DNA from: Propionibacteriales bacterium | GTDB lineage: Bacteria; Actinomycetota; Actinomycetes; Propionibacteriales; Nocardioidaceae | Direction: 5' to 3' | Length of the DNA: 48,435 bases | Assembly (NCBI GenBank): GCA_009377795.1 | Contig: WHTJ01000023.1 | Coordinates: 1 to 48,435, forward strand | Shown: positions 21,321 through 29,978 of the stretch, piece after piece | Layout: every line of letters starts with the position of its first letter | Numbering within the stretch: the first letter of the stretch is position 1 | Made by a program: the position numbers and the translations under genes | Notes under the pieces: generated by a model | What the model saw: the letters and a program-made list of their open reading frames with translations, nothing else | Databases searched by the model: none | Told to the model about the DNA's origin: nothing

Positions 21321-23744
21321 TCAGTCGCGGATCAGCTGGCTCGCCCGGCGTACCTCGGGCTCCCCGCGAACAGCCACGGGCGAGATCCGCCAGCGCATCC
21401 CGACGTACTCCAGGCCCTCCGCACGGCCGTCCCGCCGCACCGGCACCCGGAGCTCGAGGGACGTGCGCCCGGCGTCCAGCCAGCCGAACCGGCTCCATCT
21501 GGACCGGCTGAGCCGCGTCGACAAGGGTTCGCGGGTGAAGGAGCGCACCCACCGGCGATTCAGGTCTCCGAGGGTCGCCTGCGGCACGCCTCGGTCGGCC
21601 GCGGCGAACCGCATGAAGATCGCGAACGGAACGTCGGCCGGCCGGGAAAGCTCCAGCCGGAACCTGGCCGGGTCGCCCTCGGCGGTACGCGCTCGCACGG
21701 TGCTGAGAGTCATCCGCGGTTTGGGGTCGTCGTCGACCACGAACGCATTGCCCAGGTAGCGCGAGGTCATCACGTTGCGCAGCGGGAACGCGGCCAGGAA
21801 GTACCTCGTGTGCTTGCCGTCATACCGCCGGTCCGCGTCGTAGGCAACCGGGATCACTCCAGATCGCGTGCCCCGTGGGATGTCCACCCGGACCGACTGA
21901 GTCTCCCGCCAGTTCTGGATGTTCTGTACGTACACCCGGAGGCTCGCCGGCTTGGTCACGTCGCCGGTGACCGTGTACGGGACGTCCAACGTGGCCGTGC
22001 CTCCGTCGCCCTCGACCTGCCTCGCGGTGCCGATACTCACCACCGGCAGCGGCGTCGGCTCGTCCGGCACGATCACCCGGTTGCGGCCCGCGAACTCCAG
22101 CAGCCACACATGACCGCTCTCCGACACACCCTCCAGCTCGACCTTGGTCACCCGGGTGAGGTCGATCCCCGACACTCCGGCGAGCGGTGCACGGAGGTTC
22201 TGTCCCCACAGCTTGGCCAGGTCGAACCGGTTACCCGGGAACGGCACGAGGCGCCCGCCACCGACCGCCGGTACGGTCGCCGTCGTGGCGTCCGCGTCGG
22301 TCAGCCGGAAGCGGAGCCGTACCGGCCGTTCCTTGGCCACCACGACCCTCGCCTCCAGGTCGGCGTAGCCCGACAGGTCGCGCGGCGCGGCCAGCTGCAC
22401 GCCGCCGGTGGCGCCCGCAGTACTCCACGTCATTTCCATCGCACCCGCGCTCGGCGCGCTCCGCGGAGGTACGGGTGGCCAGTGCGGCGTGCGGACGGGG
22501 GAGGCGCCGTCGCCGCACGCGCGGTCCTCGGGAGCACTGGAACGACCGACACACTGGGAGACCTCGGCGCCGCCGGAGCCGGTGAGCGAACGTGCGAGCG
22601 GGCGGATCAGCGTCTCGTCCAGCCCCAGCTGCGCGCTGCGTACGTCGGCGTCGCCCGCGGACGGGACCGAGACGTTGCTGCCGTCGAACATCGGCAACAA
22701 CGAATCGTCACCCCGAGCGAACAACGAGACCGCCCCCGCGATGTACGTCTTGCCCACCCGGCGTTGCTCGACCTTGGTGAGCCGCCGTTCCGAGTTCCTG
22801 CCGCACACCGGGTCGTTGGGGTTCCACCAGTCGTCCCAGGCGCCTCCGATCGAGAGCCCAGGAGTCCATTCGGTGTTGAAGAAATTGTGGTTGGCGCCCA
22901 TGACCATCAGCGCGCTGTGCAGCGCCGGATCGTGGGTGACGTCGCGCTGGGTGTCGACGTACCCCTGCCCCTGAAGGTCGGAGACGTCGCCGTCGCAGAA
23001 GGGCAGCATCGACACCGTGGGGATGCCGGTGGCGACCTGCCGCCCGAAGTCGGTGGGGCCGATCAGGACCAGGCCGGACAGCTTGTACGCAGCGGGGGTA
23101 GCGGTGTCGATCGCGGCACGCTCGACGCCCTCGCCGCCACGGGAATGGCCGACCAGTACGACGTTCCTCATCTGGAGCCGGTGGAACCATCGTGACTCCG
23201 GGTCGCGGTTGCGCTGCGCCCAGACTCCGAGATGGCGGCGTACGAGCAGGGACCGAGCGGCGGCCCCGCCGTCGGCCCGGTTCCAGTCCTGCTCGTTGAT
23301 GCTGTTGGCGGAGATGGACACAGTGACGTAGCCCTGCGAGGCCAGCAGCCGCTGGACGTAGTCGTACCCCAGATAGCTCGGAACCGGGAGCCCCCGGGGC
23401 CCGCACAGCCACTGCAGGGGGCTGGGCCCGTCGGCCGAGCCGTCGCGCGGCGTGTAGCAGGCCTGATGCCGCCCGTGCAGGAAGAGCACGAGCGGGCGTC
23501 GGCCGGGCGCGTCCACCGGCCTGACCACATGACCCCACATCTCGACCGGCAGCGGGAAGCCGGACGACGGCCGCGGCCGCAGCTTGTAGTCACTCGTCCG
23601 GGTCTCGTAGGGGCCGGACACGCCCGGGTCGGCCGCGACCCCGAGCGCCCGTCCGTCCGGCGGTGGGGTGTACGGCGTCCCCGGTTCGATGGCCCGTCTC
23701 TCGGTCGAGTCCAGCTGCCGGGCACCCAGCCGCAGGTCGAGCCT
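21321..23744 (-). pseudogene. Secreted alpha/beta-hydrolase with Calx-beta-like C-terminus, downstream part of interrupted gene
   Basis: After a TAA at 23745-23747 the same frame stays open to 21321. The part includes the hydrolase core LVLFLHGRHQACY and nucleophile elbow VLVGHSRGGEG, an MGANHNFFNTEW segment that supplies the likely catalytic His, and a C-terminal region with strand-rich Calx-beta-like modules (VSIGTARQVEGDGGTATLDV; SRYLGNAFVVDDD). The first possible internal start is GTG 23621, but it would lack a signal peptide and drop the residues RLDLRLGARQLDSTE just after the stop, which read as normal coding sequence. I infer a 920-codon secreted hydrolase broken by one nonsense codon. 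Alternatives: a sequencing error, or read-through. Confidence 0.75.
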
Positions 23745-24288: not shown

Positions 24289-25218
24289 GTGGCCGAACTC
24301 CCGACCTGGCGCGAGGCGTGGACCGCCGCGCTCTACGGCCCGGACGGGTTTTATCGGCGAGAACGGCCGGGCGCGCATTTCCGCACCTCGGTGCACGCCT
24401 CACCGCTGTTCGCTACCGCGATGCTCGCACTGGCCCGCCGCCACGACCTCACCACGGTCGTCGACGTCGGCACGGGCCGCGGTGAGCTGCTCGGCCAGTT
24501 GGACGAGCTGGCCCCGGGCGAGCTGCGCCTGGTGGGGCATGACGTCGTACCCCGCCCGTCCGACCTGCCACCCCGAATCGAGTGGGTCGACCGGCTGCCG
24601 GACCGGATCGACGGACTGGTCGTGGCCAACGAGTGGCTGGACGACATCCCCTGCGACGTGGTCGAGGTCGACGACGCCGGTACGGTGCGGCTCGTACACG
24701 TCGACCCCGCCACCGGCGAGGAGGCGTTGGGCGAGCCGTTCGACGAACCCTGGCTGAACAGCTGGTGGCCGCTGGCCGAGCCGGGCACCCGCGCCGAGAT
24801 CGGTGCGGCGCGGGACGACGACTGGGCGGACGTCGTACGCCGTGTCGGCGACGGCCTCGCGGTCGCGATCGACTACGGACACACCCTGGATCGGCGTCCG
24901 GCGCTCGGCAGCCTGACGGCGTACCAGCACGGCCGCGAGGTGGACGTCATACCTGACGGGAGCCGCGACATCACCGCGCACGTGGCCGTCGACTCACTCA
25001 TCGGTACGCGTACGACGCAACGAGAAGCGCTTCACAGCTTGGGAATTCTCAGCACACGACCGCCGCTGGACCGGGCGCATGCAGACCCCGCGGGGTACGT
25101 CCGCGAGCTGAACGACGCCTCGGCCGCGGCCGAGCTCACCGCGCGCGGCGGCCTCGGCGACTTCATCTGGATCATGTCCCCGCACGGGCTCGACGGGCGC
25201 GCTCCAGCTGCTCGGTGA
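24289..25218 (+). CDS. MidA/NDUFAF7-type SAM-dependent methyltransferase (DUF185)
   Basis: 309 aa. SAM motif VVDVGTGRGELLGQL (about 57-71), the family Asn-Glu motif VVANEWLDDIPCDVVEV (in place of NELLDALP), VAIDYGH, and the family hallmark DITAHVAVDSL near residue 228. In humans NDUFAF7 dimethylates an Arg of NDUFS2, the NuoD homologue, during complex I assembly; an orphan NuoD lies 2 kb away here. The GTG start has TAGGGT 6 nt upstream. The 3' end overlaps the convergent PH-domain gene by 47 bp. Enzyme family is confident; the NuoD target is inference. Confidence 0.88.
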   Translation: MAELPTWREAWTAALYGPDGFYRRERPGAHFRTSVHASPLFATAMLALARRHDLTTVVDVGTGRGELLGQLDELAPGELRLVGHDVVPRPSDLPPRIEWVDRLPDRIDGLVVANEWLDDIPCDVVEVDDAGTVRLVHVDPATGEEALGEPFDEPWLNSWWPLAEPGTRAEIGAARDDDWADVVRRVGDGLAVAIDYGHTLDRRPALGSLTAYQHGREVDVIPDGSRDITAHVAVDSLIGTRTTQREALHSLGILSTRPPLDRAHADPAGYVRELNDASAAAELTARGGLGDFIWIMSPHGLDGRAPAAR

Positions 25219-26632
25219 CGAGCGCCCTCGCCTCGTCCACCGAGCGATGCTTGGCCACGGCGTTGCAGGGGCCCGGCGTGGTGTGGATGTGCACGTCCGC
25301 CAGACCGAGACGGCGCTGGGTCGGGCCCTGGTGGAGATGCACCGACTGCGTCTTGTGGTGCGGCACGATGTCGGTACGCCGCAGCATCCAACCTCGTACG
25401 GTGACCGCGACCCGATCGGTCGCGCCGGCCGCGAAATACCGCCACCCGACCGGCCGGAAGAGTCGCGCCCGCCGGGGCGCGCCCCGTACCGGGATTTCGC
25501 CGAGCCGGGACCCGTGTCCGAGACGCGCGAGCACGTCGTACGCCACCGCCTTCGGCACCGCCGGAAGCAGGGTCGGCGTCGAGGTCGAGTTGTCGCCGGA
25601 CGACCCCGTGTACCCCGCGATGTCGACCTCGACCCGGACCAGCTCCGCTCGCCGCCACAGCAGCGGCTCCTGGACGACGAAGCCCTGGATCCGGTCGAGC
25701 AGCACGGTCTGCGTGCGAAGGTCGAACAGCCCCCGGCGGAGCCGCCACCCGCCGGCGGTCTCACTGAGCACGAAGCCCCACTGGTTCACCAGATGCCTGG
25801 CGAGCGCCGTGCCGGCACCCAGAATCGTCGTGAACCCGATCGCCAGACCGCCCGGAAGGAAGACCGCGATCTCCGCATCCTCGATGAGATAGGCGAGCAC
25901 TCCCACCGCCGCGAGGAACACCACCATCAGGAGCGCGGAGACGATCAGCTCGGTCGAGAGCAGGGTCCCGACGACCAGCCATTGCGGACGCACGGCGAGG
26001 ATCTCCCGCTCCACCGGCGCCACGCGGCCCTCGGCCTCCGCCGTGTCGAAGCGTGGAGGGGCGGGGGCCTCCCCACCAGGCTCGGCCGAGACCGGCGGCC
26101 GTGGGTACGGCACCGCTGCGTGCGGCAGCTCCTCACCCAGTTCGAGAATGACCGCGCGCAACCGATGCGCGTCATCGAGCCGCAAGAACGCCAACGGAGC
26201 TTCGGATTCCGACCCACCGGCGACCTCGAAGCGAAGCTCCGCCATGCCGAATATCCGAGCGAGAAAGGGCTGGACGACGTCCACCGCCTGGAGTCGCTCG
26301 AGGCTGATCCGGCGAGATCGGCGCACGAAGACACCGGAGTCGATCCGCACCTCCTCCGGCTCGATCCGGAAGCGGGTGAACCACCAGGCGCAGAACCCGT
26401 ACACCAGCCCACCGACGACGACGGTCCCGCCGATGACCACGACGCCGAGCAGCTGCACGCCCTCGGCCAGCTCCCGGACCAGCGCCACCACGCCGGCCAG
26501 GATGAGGATTCCCACCCGCAGGAAGGGCGACACCGGATGCACCCGCTGGAACCCTTCTCCCGCGACCCCCGGTTGTGCCCACCCCTTCGCGGTGTCGTCC
26601 GGTGCGTTCGCGGGTCGGTCGGGTTCGGTCAC
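25172..26632 (-). CDS. Multi-pass membrane protein with bacterial PH (DUF304/bPH2) domains
   Basis: 486 aa, YdbT-like. The first pair of helices is at about 22-70 (FLRVGILILAGVVALV; VVVIGGTVVVGGLVYGF), followed by a bPH2 domain beginning RFRIEPEEVRIDSGVFVRR and ISLERLQAVDVVQPFLAR. A second helix pair (about 225-290) precedes another PH domain (LLDRIQGFVVQEPLLWRR), and a third PH-like segment ends the protein (RTDIVPHHKTQSVHLHQGP). In Bacillus such proteins resist or modulate membrane stress, but the role here is unknown. The GTG overlaps the stop of the smaller PH gene (GTGA), so the two form an operon. Confidence 0.88.
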   Translation of the reverse strand: MTEPDRPANAPDDTAKGWAQPGVAGEGFQRVHPVSPFLRVGILILAGVVALVRELAEGVQLLGVVVIGGTVVVGGLVYGFCAWWFTRFRIEPEEVRIDSGVFVRRSRRISLERLQAVDVVQPFLARIFGMAELRFEVAGGSESEAPLAFLRLDDAHRLRAVILELGEELPHAAVPYPRPPVSAEPGGEAPAPPRFDTAEAEGRVAPVEREILAVRPQWLVVGTLLSTELIVSALLMVVFLAAVGVLAYLIEDAEIAVFLPGGLAIGFTTILGAGTALARHLVNQWGFVLSETAGGWRLRRGLFDLRTQTVLLDRIQGFVVQEPLLWRRAELVRVEVDIAGYTGSSGDNSTSTPTLLPAVPKAVAYDVLARLGHGSRLGEIPVRGAPRRARLFRPVGWRYFAAGATDRVAVTVRGWMLRRTDIVPHHKTQSVHLHQGPTQRRLGLADVHIHTTPGPCNAVAKHRSVDEARALVTEQLERARRARAGT

Positions 26633-27129
26633 AGGCCCGCCGCCCGAGCCTCGCCGCGCTCGGTGAGCCGGTCACGCATCCGCGCCGCCTGATCGGCCGG
26701 GAGGCCGAGGATCCTCGCCCTGGTCTGCATCGACGCGGTGTGCAGCTCCACCCGAGCCATGCCGTACGCGCGGTCGAGCGGTCCGGCGAGGACGTCGACG
26801 AACTGCATCCGGCCGTACGGCACCGCGACGATGGTGCGGAACATCAGGCCGTGCTTGATGTAGAGGTCGTCGTCCCGCTCGGCGTACCCCCAGGCGCGAC
26901 GCCATCGCCCGGCCCACCACCAGCACCACACGGCGGCGGCCACCCCCGCGATCGTGACCAGCCAGGGCAGCCAGCCGAGCGAGTCCGGCAGCGGAAGGAA
27001 TGCCAGGACGGCGACGAGCACGGCGGCACCGACCACGGCGGAGACACAGCCGACCAGCCGGATCTTGGTCGCCAGCCGGTCGGACACCGGCTGCCAGTCG
27101 ACACCGGGCGGCGCGAACAGCTCATCCAT
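26629..27129 (-). CDS. Small membrane protein with bPH2 (DUF304) domain
   Basis: 166 aa, YdbS-like. Two transmembrane helices (about 28-50 and 52-76) precede a single PH domain ([60 protein letters not shown]). The tail overlaps the start of the larger PH protein, the typical YdbS-YdbT arrangement. TAGCCT lies 6 nt upstream of the ATG, suggesting a leaderless mRNA. The start is 59 bp from the divergent nuoD-like gene, so the two promoters are nearly back to back. Confidence 0.88.
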
Positions 27130-27188
27130 GCACCGAGGCTACTGCGGCACACCGCCGTCCCGTGCCCTTCGCATGCCAGGATGGGTAC

Positions 27189-28388
27189 ATGGCCGAGGAA
27201 CGCGTCGTCGGTGTGGGTGCCGGAGCCGCCGGTTTCGGTGGCTACGACCGTGGCGGCGGGGAGCCGGGAGGGCTCGCGACGCAGGACATGGTGCTCAACA
27301 TCGGCCCGCAGCATCCGGCCACCCACGGCGTGCTCCGGCTGCGGATCACCCTCGACGGCGAGCGCATCGTCGGCTGCGAGCCGATCGTCGGATACATGCA
27401 CCGCGGCGTGGAGAAGTTGTTCGAGGTGCGCGACTACCGGCAGATCATCGTGCTGGCCAATCGGCACGACTGGCTGTCGGCGTTCTCCTCCGAGCTGGGT
27501 GTGGTCATGGCCGTCGAGCGAATGCTCGGCATGGAGGTACCCGAGCGCGCGGTGTGGGCCCGCACCCTGCTGGCGGAGATGAACCGTGCGCTCAACCACC
27601 TGATGTTCCTCGGCTCCTACCCGATCGAGCTGGGCGCGATCACGCCGATCTTCTACGCGTTCCGCGAGCGGGAGACGTTGCAGCAGGTGATGGAGGAGAT
27701 CTCCGGCGGCCGGATGCACTACATGTTCAACCGGGTCGGCGGGCTGAAGGAGGACCTGCCGGCCGGGTGGCTCGATCGCGCATCCGCCGCGGTGGCCGCC
27801 GTACGCCGCCGGGTCCCGCAGATCGAGGACCTCATCTTCGGCAACGAGATCTTCCTGGCCCGCACCCGCGGGGTCGGCACGATCTCGCCGGAGCTGATCT
27901 CGGCGTACGGCGTGTCCGGGCCGATCGCCCGCGCGTCCGGGGTCGACTTCGACCTCAGGCGGGACGAGCCGTACCTCGCCTATCCGGAGCTGGCCGAGGA
28001 GGGCGTGCTGCGCGTGACGACCGGCGAGGACGGCGACTGCCATTCGCGGTTCGGCATGCTGCTCGAGCAGGTGTCGGTGTCCCTCGACCTGGCCGACGCG
28101 TGCATAGCCCGACTGCGGTCCCTGCCGCAGGGGCCGATCAACCAGCGGCTGCCGAAGATCCTGAAGGCACCGGAGGGCGCGACGTACTGTTGGACGGAGA
28201 ACCCGCTCGGCATCAACGGCTACTACCTGGTGTCCCGTGGGGAGAAGACGCCATGGCGGCTCAAGCTGCGGTCGGCGTCGTTCAACAACATCGCGGTGCT
28301 GCCCGAGGTGCTGCGCGGGTGCGTGGTGGCGGACATGATCGCGATCCTGGGCTCGATGTTCTTCGTGGTCGGCGACATCGACAAGTAA
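27189..28388 (+). CDS. Orphan NADH-quinone oxidoreductase subunit D-like protein (NuoD paralogue)
   Basis: 399-aa member of the complex I 49-kDa / NiFe-hydrogenase large-subunit family. [15 protein letters not shown] (37-51), [12 protein letters not shown] (68-79), [19 protein letters not shown] and [14 protein letters not shown] are all present. His46 matches the quinone-site His, and Arg72 matches human NDUFS2 Arg85, the NDUFAF7 methylation site. At the quinone-binding Tyr108 position it has Trp95 (RHDWLS). No other nuo subunit gene is in the window. Start ATG 27189 fits the family; a CAGGAT box is 6 nt upstream. Function is probably not standard complex I catalysis. Confidence 0.9.
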
Positions 28389-28466: not shown

Positions 28467-29978
28467 ATGGGACGGGCCGCGGAGTGGCGCGAGCGGTGGA
28501 GACATATCGACCCGCTCGCGCCTTTGGTCGGCGTCACAGCTCTGACGGTTTACGCGCTGCACGGGCTCGATGGCCATCTCCCGCGGGATCTGGGCATCTA
28601 CGCGTACGGCGGACAGCAGGTCGCGAACGGGGTTCCGCCCTACGTCGGAATCTTGAATCGCGTCGGCCCGCTCGGACATCTCCTTCCGGGGCTCGGGGTG
28701 GTCGGCGCGCGGGTCGGGGGATTCGACGACATGCGCGGCATCCAGTTGCTCTACCTGATCATCTCGGTCGCGTGTGTATGCCTGGTGTACGTCGTCGGAC
28801 GGGAGCTGTTCGCCTCACGGCTCGCCGGGCTCGCTGCCACCGCCGCGTTCCTGAGCTTCTTCGGCTTCATTCACGTCGCCTCGACCGGCCCGCGCGACAA
28901 GACGCCGATGGTGCTCTTCGTGCTCTGCGTCCTCCTTGCCGTCGTCAGGCAGCGGTGGTTCGTCGCCGGGCTCTTCGTCGGCCTCGCCACGCTCACCTGG
29001 CAGCCGGCTTTCTTCGTCGCCGTGACCGCGGCCGTGGTCGCACCGCTCGCTCTGCGACCGGCCGCTGCACTCATCCGCGCGCTGGTCGCCGTCGTCGCAG
29101 GTGGCCTGGTCACGGTGCTGGTGTGTGTCGCGTACTTCGCCGCGGCCGGTGCCCTGCGTGAGTTTATCGATGCGTTCCTGCTGATCAGTGCCCGATACGC
29201 ACATGCGACTCGCCCAACGTCGGACCCCGAGATCTGGACCCACCTGCACAAGGCATACGGCGACTTCGTGTGGGTGATCGCCGTCGGGCTGGCAGCGATG
29301 CTGATCGTGGCCGGCATGGCGCTGGTTCTGAAGGGCCGCCGACAAGACCCGATGCGAATGTTCATAATTGCGGTGGGTACAGCGTCCGTCGTGGGACTGG
29401 TGTGGAGCTCGCAGGTCCTCAACAACTGGCCCGACGTGTTCGTACTCCTGCCGCTGGCGGCGTTGGGCATCGGCGGGATCGCCAAGGAACTATCGACGCG
29501 AGTCTCCGCCAGGGTGGCGCTGCCGCTCACGCTTGCGTGGGTTGTCGTCGGCGTGGCGGCCGCAGGCCACTACTCGGTGTCCACGCGCGAGGATGGGCTG
29601 GACGATCAGCGTGAGTCGGTGCAGGCCGTGATCGCTGCGCTTCCGCCCGGGGCGTCGATCCTCTCGATAGAGGCACCGCAACCACTCGTGCTCTCGGGCC
29701 GGACGAACCCATCGCGGCACCAGATCTTCGTCGGGCCGTTGGGTCGCTATATCGAAGACACCTGGCCGGGTGGCCTGCGGGGCTACGCCGCCTGGATAGG
29801 ACGCGAGCAGACAACCGTTGTTGCGCTGCAGAGGGGACCCGTTCCCGAATGGCTTACCGAGACACTCCGCACGCAGTATGCCCGGGTAGGAGCGGCGCCG
29901 GGTTGGCAATGGTACCTGCACCGCTCCGTCGCAGAGTCCATCCGGTCGCAACTGCGGAGAGACCTGGCTCCGTACTGA
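28467..29978 (+). CDS. GT-C type membrane glycosyltransferase-like protein (ArnT/PMT superfamily)
   Basis: 503 aa with about ten to eleven hydrophobic segments from residue 20 to 375 and a soluble C-terminal part. An early periplasmic loop reads LPRDLGIYAYGGQQVANGVPPY, matching the acidic-residue and GxPPY motif of polyprenol-phosphate-sugar dependent GT-C enzymes. These move a sugar or mannose from a lipid carrier to a protein or glycan outside the membrane. AGGTGGCAGTGAC precedes the ATG. No neighbouring gene suggests a target; identification rests on topology and the loop motif. It is convergent with the next gene (26-bp gap). Confidence 0.65.
   Translation: MGRAAEWRERWRHIDPLAPLVGVTALTVYALHGLDGHLPRDLGIYAYGGQQVANGVPPYVGILNRVGPLGHLLPGLGVVGARVGGFDDMRGIQLLYLIISVACVCLVYVVGRELFASRLAGLAATAAFLSFFGFIHVASTGPRDKTPMVLFVLCVLLAVVRQRWFVAGLFVGLATLTWQPAFFVAVTAAVVAPLALRPAAALIRALVAVVAGGLVTVLVCVAYFAAAGALREFIDAFLLISARYAHATRPTSDPEIWTHLHKAYGDFVWVIAVGLAAMLIVAGMALVLKGRRQDPMRMFIIAVGTASVVGLVWSSQVLNNWPDVFVLLPLAALGIGGIAKELSTRVSARVALPLTLAWVVVGVAAAGHYSVSTREDGLDDQRESVQAVIAALPPGASILSIEAPQPLVLSGRTNPSRHQIFVGPLGRYIEDTWPGGLRGYAAWIGREQTTVVALQRGPVPEWLTETLRTQYARVGAAPGWQWYLHRSVAESIRSQLRRDLAPY

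Follow-up and report, generated by a model that had tools for sequence, protein, structure and literature searches.

The midA-nuoD2 locus and its methyltransferase

Analysis of a 48,435-nucleotide stretch of DNA (termed the window) from a Propionibacteriales bacterium revealed a gene encoding a putative protein-arginine methyltransferase, MidA, near an orphan copy of nuoD, designated nuoD2. The window is contig C146 (WHTJ01000023.1 of assembly GCA_009377795.1) of a 4.58-Mb draft genome that is 96.8% complete. The midA gene (positions 24289 to 25218, forward strand) encodes a short actinobacterial form, 309 amino acids long, of the S-adenosylmethionine-dependent methyltransferases of the MidA/NDUFAF7 family (PF02636). 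The nuoD2 gene (27189 to 28388, forward strand; start codon inferred) encodes a NuoD paralogue of 399 amino acids (PF00346, 232.3 bits). Positioned between them on the reverse strand are two genes encoding membrane proteins of the bPH_2 family (PF03703), one of 486 amino acids with three bPH_2 stretches (25172 to 26632; 139.7 bits) and one of 166 amino acids with a single stretch (26629 to 27129; 51.8 bits). The long PH gene runs convergently into midA and overlaps its 3' end by 47 bases. The original prediction had named these four products in this order, and the Pfam matches bore it out.

MidA scored 57.7 bits against PF02636 (curated cut-off, 23.3 bits), with only profile positions 75 to 237 of 249 aligned, and was the sole match to this family in its genome. 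An AlphaFold2 model generated from 36 window and locus sequences reached a predicted local distance difference test score (pLDDT) of 93.5 and a predicted template modeling score (pTM) of 0.90. The top six chains in a Foldseek search with this model came from Protein Data Bank entries 4g67 and 4f3n (both COG1565), 5ztz, 5zu0, and 1zkd (twice). Superposition by VIA-align gave Z scores of 24.6 to 28.9 for these five entries and 12.4 for the next methyltransferases. The title under which 5ztz and 5zu0 are deposited is that of a MidA paper from 2018; 1zkd is presumably a member of the MidA/COG1565 family as well. Comparison of 36 sequences of the actinobacterial form revealed that A113, E115, L117, and D118 are invariant and N114 almost so; the same holds for T229 and V232 (invariant) and for A230 and H231 (almost invariant). 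These residues fall in A-N-E-x-L-D and T-A-H-V, which we take to be functional motifs of the MidA/NDUFAF7 family. The window protein is short and divergent, yet the MidA fold is predicted for it. PF02636 also matched in the control genomes of Synechococcus elongatus, Haloferax volcanii, and Caulobacter; its presence in a cyanobacterium and a haloarchaeon indicates that the MidA family extends beyond Proteobacteria and eukaryotes.

Assembly of human complex I requires methylation by NDUFAF7. The established target of the MidA/NDUFAF7 family is described as the arginine of the HRG motif of NuoD/NDUFS2 (PMC3829151, PMC9006661, PMC3750175).

NuoD2 and the second nuo cluster

The 29 reading frames of the window scanned with Pfam contained no further nuo genes, which agrees with the original prediction that nuoD2 stands alone. 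For the genome this does not hold, since Pfam scans revealed two nuo clusters on another contig, C178. PF00346 identified NuoD in the window and in one of these clusters, nuo1, and nowhere else in the genome, and PF00146 identified two NuoH proteins on C178, approximately 16 kb apart. In the canonical nuo1 cluster, B, C, D, E, F, and G were recognized adjoining one NuoH. In nuo2, A, B, C, H, I, K, L, and M were recognized, and the only sign of nuoN2 was a NuoL-like match on the stretch L089. NuoC2 (C178:31833 to 32192; PF00329, 101.8 bits) occupies the frame 11749 to 12426 of L088, a stretch of C178. Searches with the genome's own NuoE1 and NuoF1 detected no second NuoE or NuoF in the nuo2 stretch (NuoG was not searched alone), and the sole second NuoF match in the genome was on contig C16. 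The end of the NuoC2 frame (L088:12426) overlaps the inferred start of NuoH2 (12419), so there is no room for a D gene between them. Since relatives of nuo2 carry D between C and H and the only other NuoD lies in the window, NuoD2 appears to be the missing D protein. More than 1 kb of nuo2 (L088:13378 to approximately 14700) separates the frame of NuoH2 from the ferredoxin portion of NuoI2, and the frames scanned there gave no Pfam family above its cut-off.

Comparison with other genomes supports this assignment. In deeper actinobacterial lineages, the closest NuoD proteins (56 to 62% identical) sit inside B-C-D-H-I clusters, and the NuoB proteins of these in-cluster relatives are 74 to 82% identical to NuoB2. 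When 296 genomes from the class were surveyed with thresholds of 294 bits for NuoB2 and 590 bits for NuoD2, each protein was found in 73 genomes, with both present in 70. The two genes were 86 to 921 kb apart in 18 chosen genomes that carry both on one contig, and their separation is therefore no quirk of the genome studied here. The nearest named relatives of the window NuoD come from Nocardioidaceae and Propionibacteriales metagenome-assembled genomes and from Kribbella. The family of the window, termed f1 in the genome comparisons, is therefore probably Nocardioidaceae; another family, f3, is probably Streptomycetaceae, judging from the size and habit of its genomes. NuoD2 scored far above the PF00346 cut-off (24 bits) and aligned through the C terminus of solved 49-kDa chains. 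Among curated models, it exceeded the cut-off of NF004739 (362.8; cut-off, 360) and stayed below those of TIGR01962 (373.3; cut-off, 459.35) and NF008974 (392.4; cut-off, 522). Judged from sequence, NuoD2 is the D (49-kDa) subunit of the second complex I-like enzyme, nuo2. In nine deep lineages with an in-cluster NuoD and no MidA found (L231 to L239), extra NuoL/M-like antiporter genes were seen upstream of nuoA in eight; the remaining stretch, L235, stops shortly beyond nuoA.

The pairing of NuoD2 with NuoB2 finds its strongest evidence in an arginine next to cluster N2. According to the cited passages, one arginine leans on this cluster, and it comes from NuoD in mitochondria (bovine Arg85, Yarrowia Arg121) and from NuoB in Thermus (Nqo6 Arg83), where Thr occupies the other place (PMC8042128). 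Arg72 of NuoD2 (codon 27402 to 27404, forward strand; coordinates computed from the start of the open reading frame) falls, in an ungapped alignment, opposite the HRG arginine in solved 49-kDa subunits from mitochondria and opposite a Thr in Thermus Nqo4. Its equivalence to NDUFS2 Arg85, which had been aligned by eye, is thus upheld. At the same place, NuoD1 of the same genome carries Thr (GYLHTGIEKN). NuoB1 carries Arg (MIVAGRVSQKM) and NuoB2 carries Thr (MVVSGTVTDKM). The nuo1 pair is therefore Thermus-like (Thr in NuoD1, Arg in NuoB1), and the nuo2 pair is mitochondria-like (Arg72 in NuoD2, Thr in NuoB2).

This reciprocal pattern recurred in other genomes. All 171 aligned rows of NuoD2 type had Arg, in a set where the window and one genome are each counted twice and a broken copy contributes two pieces. 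Thr was found in all 21 NuoD1 sequences read, consisting of the genome's own and 20 taken non-randomly as the best-scoring NuoD1 rows. Arg in NuoB1 and Thr in NuoB2 were each found in 11 of 11 cases from the same genomes, namely, the present one and 10 chosen since both NuoB places were listed. The deep in-cluster NuoB proteins had Thr in 19 of 19 read. NuoD2 would be expected to pair with NuoB2, because mixed pairs would bring together two arginines (NuoD2 with NuoB1) or none (NuoD1 with NuoB2). These mixed pairs also bear on a regulatory subunit swap, in which NuoD2 would, under certain conditions, take the place of NuoD1 in the complex encoded by nuo1. In favor of such a swap, each D gene is an open frame and the two clusters share a contig; against it, two arginines would come to one position, and the quinone pockets of the two enzymes differ (Tyr/Met versus Trp/Phe; see below). 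We consider the swap extremely improbable.

Since NuoD1 has Thr and NuoD2 has Arg, NuoD2 is the only NuoD of the cell with the known target of MidA. The uniform Thr in the 21 NuoD1 sequences read rules out NuoD1 as a MidA substrate at this site. The letter X of the HRGXE motif was also considered as a sign of MidA. Among in-cluster rows, Phe occupied this place in 14 of the 18 that had no MidA nearby, and Tyr in all 6 that had one. Among orphan rows, Ala prevailed both with MidA (56 of 65) and without it (9 of 12). This letter was set aside as a matter of lineage.

Linkage of midA and nuoD2

In the class survey, PF02636 matched in 105 genomes and NuoD2-type proteins were found in 116, with weaker types down to 222 bits included where they cover the C terminus. 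Both were present in 100 genomes, MidA only in 5, NuoD2 only in 16, and neither in 175 (Fisher p, 1e-54, which is indicative only because the genomes are related). The pair thus recurs far above chance. In the 100 genomes with both, the genes shared a contig in 93, lay within 10 kb of each other in 92, and lay within 1 kb in 44; they were on different contigs in 7. In the family of the window (f1; 25 class genomes), MidA was found only in the present genome and in G604, and NuoD2 in the same two alone. The original prediction of a methyltransferase-substrate pair is supported insofar as MidA and NuoD2 are conserved together, along with the target arginine.

The exceptions were examined one by one. 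All five MidA-only loci reach a contig end: L222 and L223 carry a nuoD2 fragment there, L220 ends inside the long PH gene, L224 ends at MidA, and L221 ends 0.85 kb past the short PH gene with no nuoD2 recognized. Among the 16 NuoD2-only genomes, a more sensitive profile detected MidA or a MidA fragment adjoining NuoD2 in 4 (L140, L142, L149, and L151). One further locus (L141) is cut inside the PH gene, one genome (L143) is 70% complete, and in L144 nuoD2 is broken and no MidA was found in the remaining 1.5 kb. In 80 named nuoD2 loci, MidA was present in 70, and the other 10 have a contig end within approximately 4.5 kb upstream of nuoD2.

The position of midA varies. In loci of the Kribbella, Nonomuraea, and Actinomadura types, it is found upstream of nuoD2, and in many loci of family f3 it is on the opposite side. 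In five loci (L009, L016, L081, L103, and L105), it is directly upstream of nuoD in the same direction, with no PH gene between. In deeper lineages whose nuoD is still in the cluster, midA comes immediately after the final antiporter-type gene, taken as nuoN from gene order, in L192, L195, L196, and L199; it follows nuoN by approximately 4 kb in L198 and is some 12 kb off in L193 and L194. In L181 to L188 and L119, nuoD and midA are at most 7 kb apart, and no nuo cluster was recognized in the stretch examined. This association of midA with nuoD where nuoD is outside the cluster is expected if NuoD is the substrate of MidA. A quick NuoD tree grouped the in-cluster MidA-bearing rows with a support of only 52 and placed orphan pairs in more than one position, with many open forks and long branches. 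Rows counted in this tree as without MidA are those with none in the stretch examined (L189 to L191 have MidA elsewhere in the genome). In L180, NuoC still adjoins its D. Departure of nuoD from the cluster together with midA may have happened once or several times.

The two PH proteins were part of the original prediction, which tentatively joined all four genes in a membrane-associated assembly of a methyltransferase and its substrate away from complex I. The four genes are indeed contiguous in the window and in Kribbella and Jiangellaceae loci, and they occur in another order in several f3 genomes. PH genes were found in only 31 of the 80 named loci, against 70 for MidA, and in the five loci mentioned above midA and nuoD adjoin without them. 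Furthermore, bPH_2 proteins were present in all 31 searched genomes of family f1, including three (G214, G433, and G448) in which MidA and NuoD2 are both absent. This distribution rules out the PH proteins as a part of the system; they are optional neighbors and bystanders. The co-occurrence expected of the four genes therefore held for MidA with NuoD2 and failed for the PH genes. With nuo2 of the same genome lacking the D that NuoD2 fits, and with NuoB2 and NuoD2 occurring together in 70 genomes, a function away from complex I is contradicted, and we regard the four-gene assembly as very unlikely. The wider neighborhood is ordinary and biosynthetic, with a DUF2520 protein and genes of coaX, nadC, nadB, and panC type on one flank and genes of fdhD, folB, folP, and ftsH type on the other (names based on Pfam). 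Two large frames next to the pair had no Pfam match at an E value of 0.001; by eye, the product of 28467 to 29978 (forward strand) resembles a polytopic membrane protein and that of 21321 to 23621 (reverse strand) a secreted hydrolase.

Taken as a whole, the data are best explained by a model in which MidA dimethylates Arg72 of NuoD2 for the assembly of a second complex I that has no NADH module, and we consider this model probable. In this model, nuoD2 would encode the D subunit of nuo2 (A2, B2, C2, D2, H2, and I2 to N2), the other genes of which lie elsewhere on the chromosome, and the enzyme would have no NADH module of its own. The adjacent MidA would act as a dedicated protein-arginine methyltransferase for NuoD2. 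It would symmetrically dimethylate Arg72, the residue predicted to lean on cluster N2 across the NuoD2/NuoB2 interface, and this mark would permit the Q module to assemble. Complex I of the housekeeping type is proposed to be independent of MidA, since there NuoB1 supplies the arginine and NuoD1 carries Thr. The data show the gene identities, the empty D slot, the reciprocal Arg/Thr switch, the co-occurrence and linkage, and the predicted MidA fold; we infer that Arg72 is methylated, that the mark acts in assembly, and that NuoD2 assembles with the nuo2 proteins.

Several observations weigh against this model. All 13 in-cluster relatives in L106 to L118 keep Arg, and their genomes have no PF02636 match. 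Nine orphan NuoD2 proteins (L145 to L148, L150, and L152 to L155), mostly on long branches, also keep Arg in genomes that seem to be free of MidA. Among the matches listed for 396 genomes of the phylum, 89 genomes had PF02636 and a NuoD2-like protein, 59 had a NuoD2-like protein without PF02636, and 12 had PF02636 without a NuoD2-like match (the counts join two draws of 396 genomes, taken as identical). The association of MidA with the Arg-type NuoD accordingly has the class as its scope. The HRG arginine of E. coli is described as unmethylated (PMC3750175). Arg is thus ruled out as a marker of MidA, since it is also present where no MidA was found, and MidA may have another substrate.

MidA could instead modify NuoD2 at a different residue, or modify NuoB2 or some unrelated protein, with NuoD2 still the D subunit of nuo2 and the genes linked only through the shared complex. 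The persistence of Arg without MidA in the 13 in-cluster relatives and the position of midA after nuoN, rather than next to nuoD, would fit this alternative. However, the arginine is the established target of the family, as far as the cited passages go (PMC3829151, PMC9006661, PMC3750175). Where nuoD is outside the cluster, moreover, MidA lies with nuoD and not with the remaining cluster. The 175 genomes with neither gene and the confinement of the MidA-only cases to contig ends also argue against a different target, which we therefore judge unlikely.

The quinone pocket and comparison with known systems

Trp95 of NuoD2 (codon 27471 to 27473, forward strand; coordinates likewise computed from the frame start) aligns without gaps with Tyr87 of Thermus Nqo4 (RHDW versus RMDY). 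This Tyr is described as binding the quinone head and as strictly conserved (PMC8119997). It is regarded as essential for protonation. Trp was found at this place in 168 of 169 NuoD2-type rows, a set in which the window is counted twice and the broken L144 copy is left out. The single Tyr belongs to L197, in a cluster that also bears nuoF. NuoD1 had Tyr in 22 of 22 rows (the genome's own counted twice). The quinone-binding His is kept as His46 in the window NuoD2 and likewise in most NuoD2-type rows. On the NuoB side, NuoB2 has CCAIEFI and NuoB1 has CCAIEMM; five deep in-cluster NuoB proteins have CCAIEMG. In a spot check of six NuoD proteins from non-actinobacterial plasmids, the five that were readable all had Tyr and Arg (three are near-identical rhizobial types), and the sixth (L243) was unmatched by the pattern.

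Because of the change from Tyr to Trp in NuoD2 and from EMM to EFI in NuoB2, the quinone pocket of nuo2 looks rebuilt. NuoD2 is a NuoD by descent, and its quinone chemistry is in doubt. A reaction with menaquinone by altered chemistry seems more likely than a wholly different acceptor. As a tentative extension, which we find somewhat harder to believe than to doubt, nuo2 might represent a chemically distinct branch of complex I that acts on (mena)quinone or some other acceptor despite lacking the Tyr. A dimethylarginine made by MidA near N2 might then tune or hold the pocket, so that each cell would have two pumps with opposite switch states and different acceptor sites, one of them under control of a methyltransferase.

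If the MidA-NuoD2 model is true, loss of midA should impair nuo2 and spare nuo1. Separating the role of the methyl mark from that of the arginine itself is described as hard and is left to future work in the cited source (PMC8042128). A bacterium with one enzyme carrying Arg in NuoD together with MidA and another carrying Arg in NuoB and Thr in NuoD would provide an internal control, and an assembly step of human mitochondria could become accessible to study in a bacterium. The results also offer a proposed function for the orphan nuoD2 of actinomycetes, extend the linkage of MidA with complex I genes to a phylum other than Proteobacteria, and point to a complex I branch without the quinone Tyr.

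The function of MidA in mitochondria, the Streptomyces nuo2 cluster with a separate nuoD2, and the arginine switch between organisms are already known. A literature search judged by titles and abstracts found no link of actinobacterial nuoD2 with MidA and no report of the Tyr-to-Trp change. As far as these searches show, the MidA-nuoD2 link across actinobacteria, the coexistence of the two switch states in a single genome where MidA goes with one state, NuoC2, and the Tyr-to-Trp change are new.

The system resembles the NDUFAF7/MidA-NDUFS2 pair of humans and Dictyostelium (the mark is also carried by Paracoccus complex I) in the methyltransferase family, the predicted fold, and the arginine of HRGXE. 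It differs in that MidA is proposed to act on the D subunit of a second enzyme, one with no NADH module, in a bacterial host whose main complex I has Thr, and in the short and divergent form of MidA. Accounts of Streptomyces nuo2 list A2, B2, D2, and H2 to N2 with nuoD2 apart; as in the present genome, the second cluster has no N module and nuoD2 is located elsewhere (PMC3765725, PMC8388888). The cited passages give no function for nuoD2 and mention neither nuoC2 nor a methyltransferase, whereas here C2 is present and MidA is linked. Like the 11-subunit complex I-like enzymes exemplified by Desulfitobacterium, nuo2 has no NuoE or NuoF found in its cluster; unlike the Desulfitobacterium enzyme as described, it coexists with a canonical nuo cluster, its D gene is relocated, Trp replaces the quinone Tyr, and MidA is linked to it (PMC11238625). 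The switch described between Yarrowia and Thermus likewise puts Arg in one of the two subunits, NuoD or NuoB, and Thr in the other (PMC8042128). Here, in contrast to that comparison between organisms, both versions are present in one genome, and within the class MidA tracks the version with Arg in NuoD.

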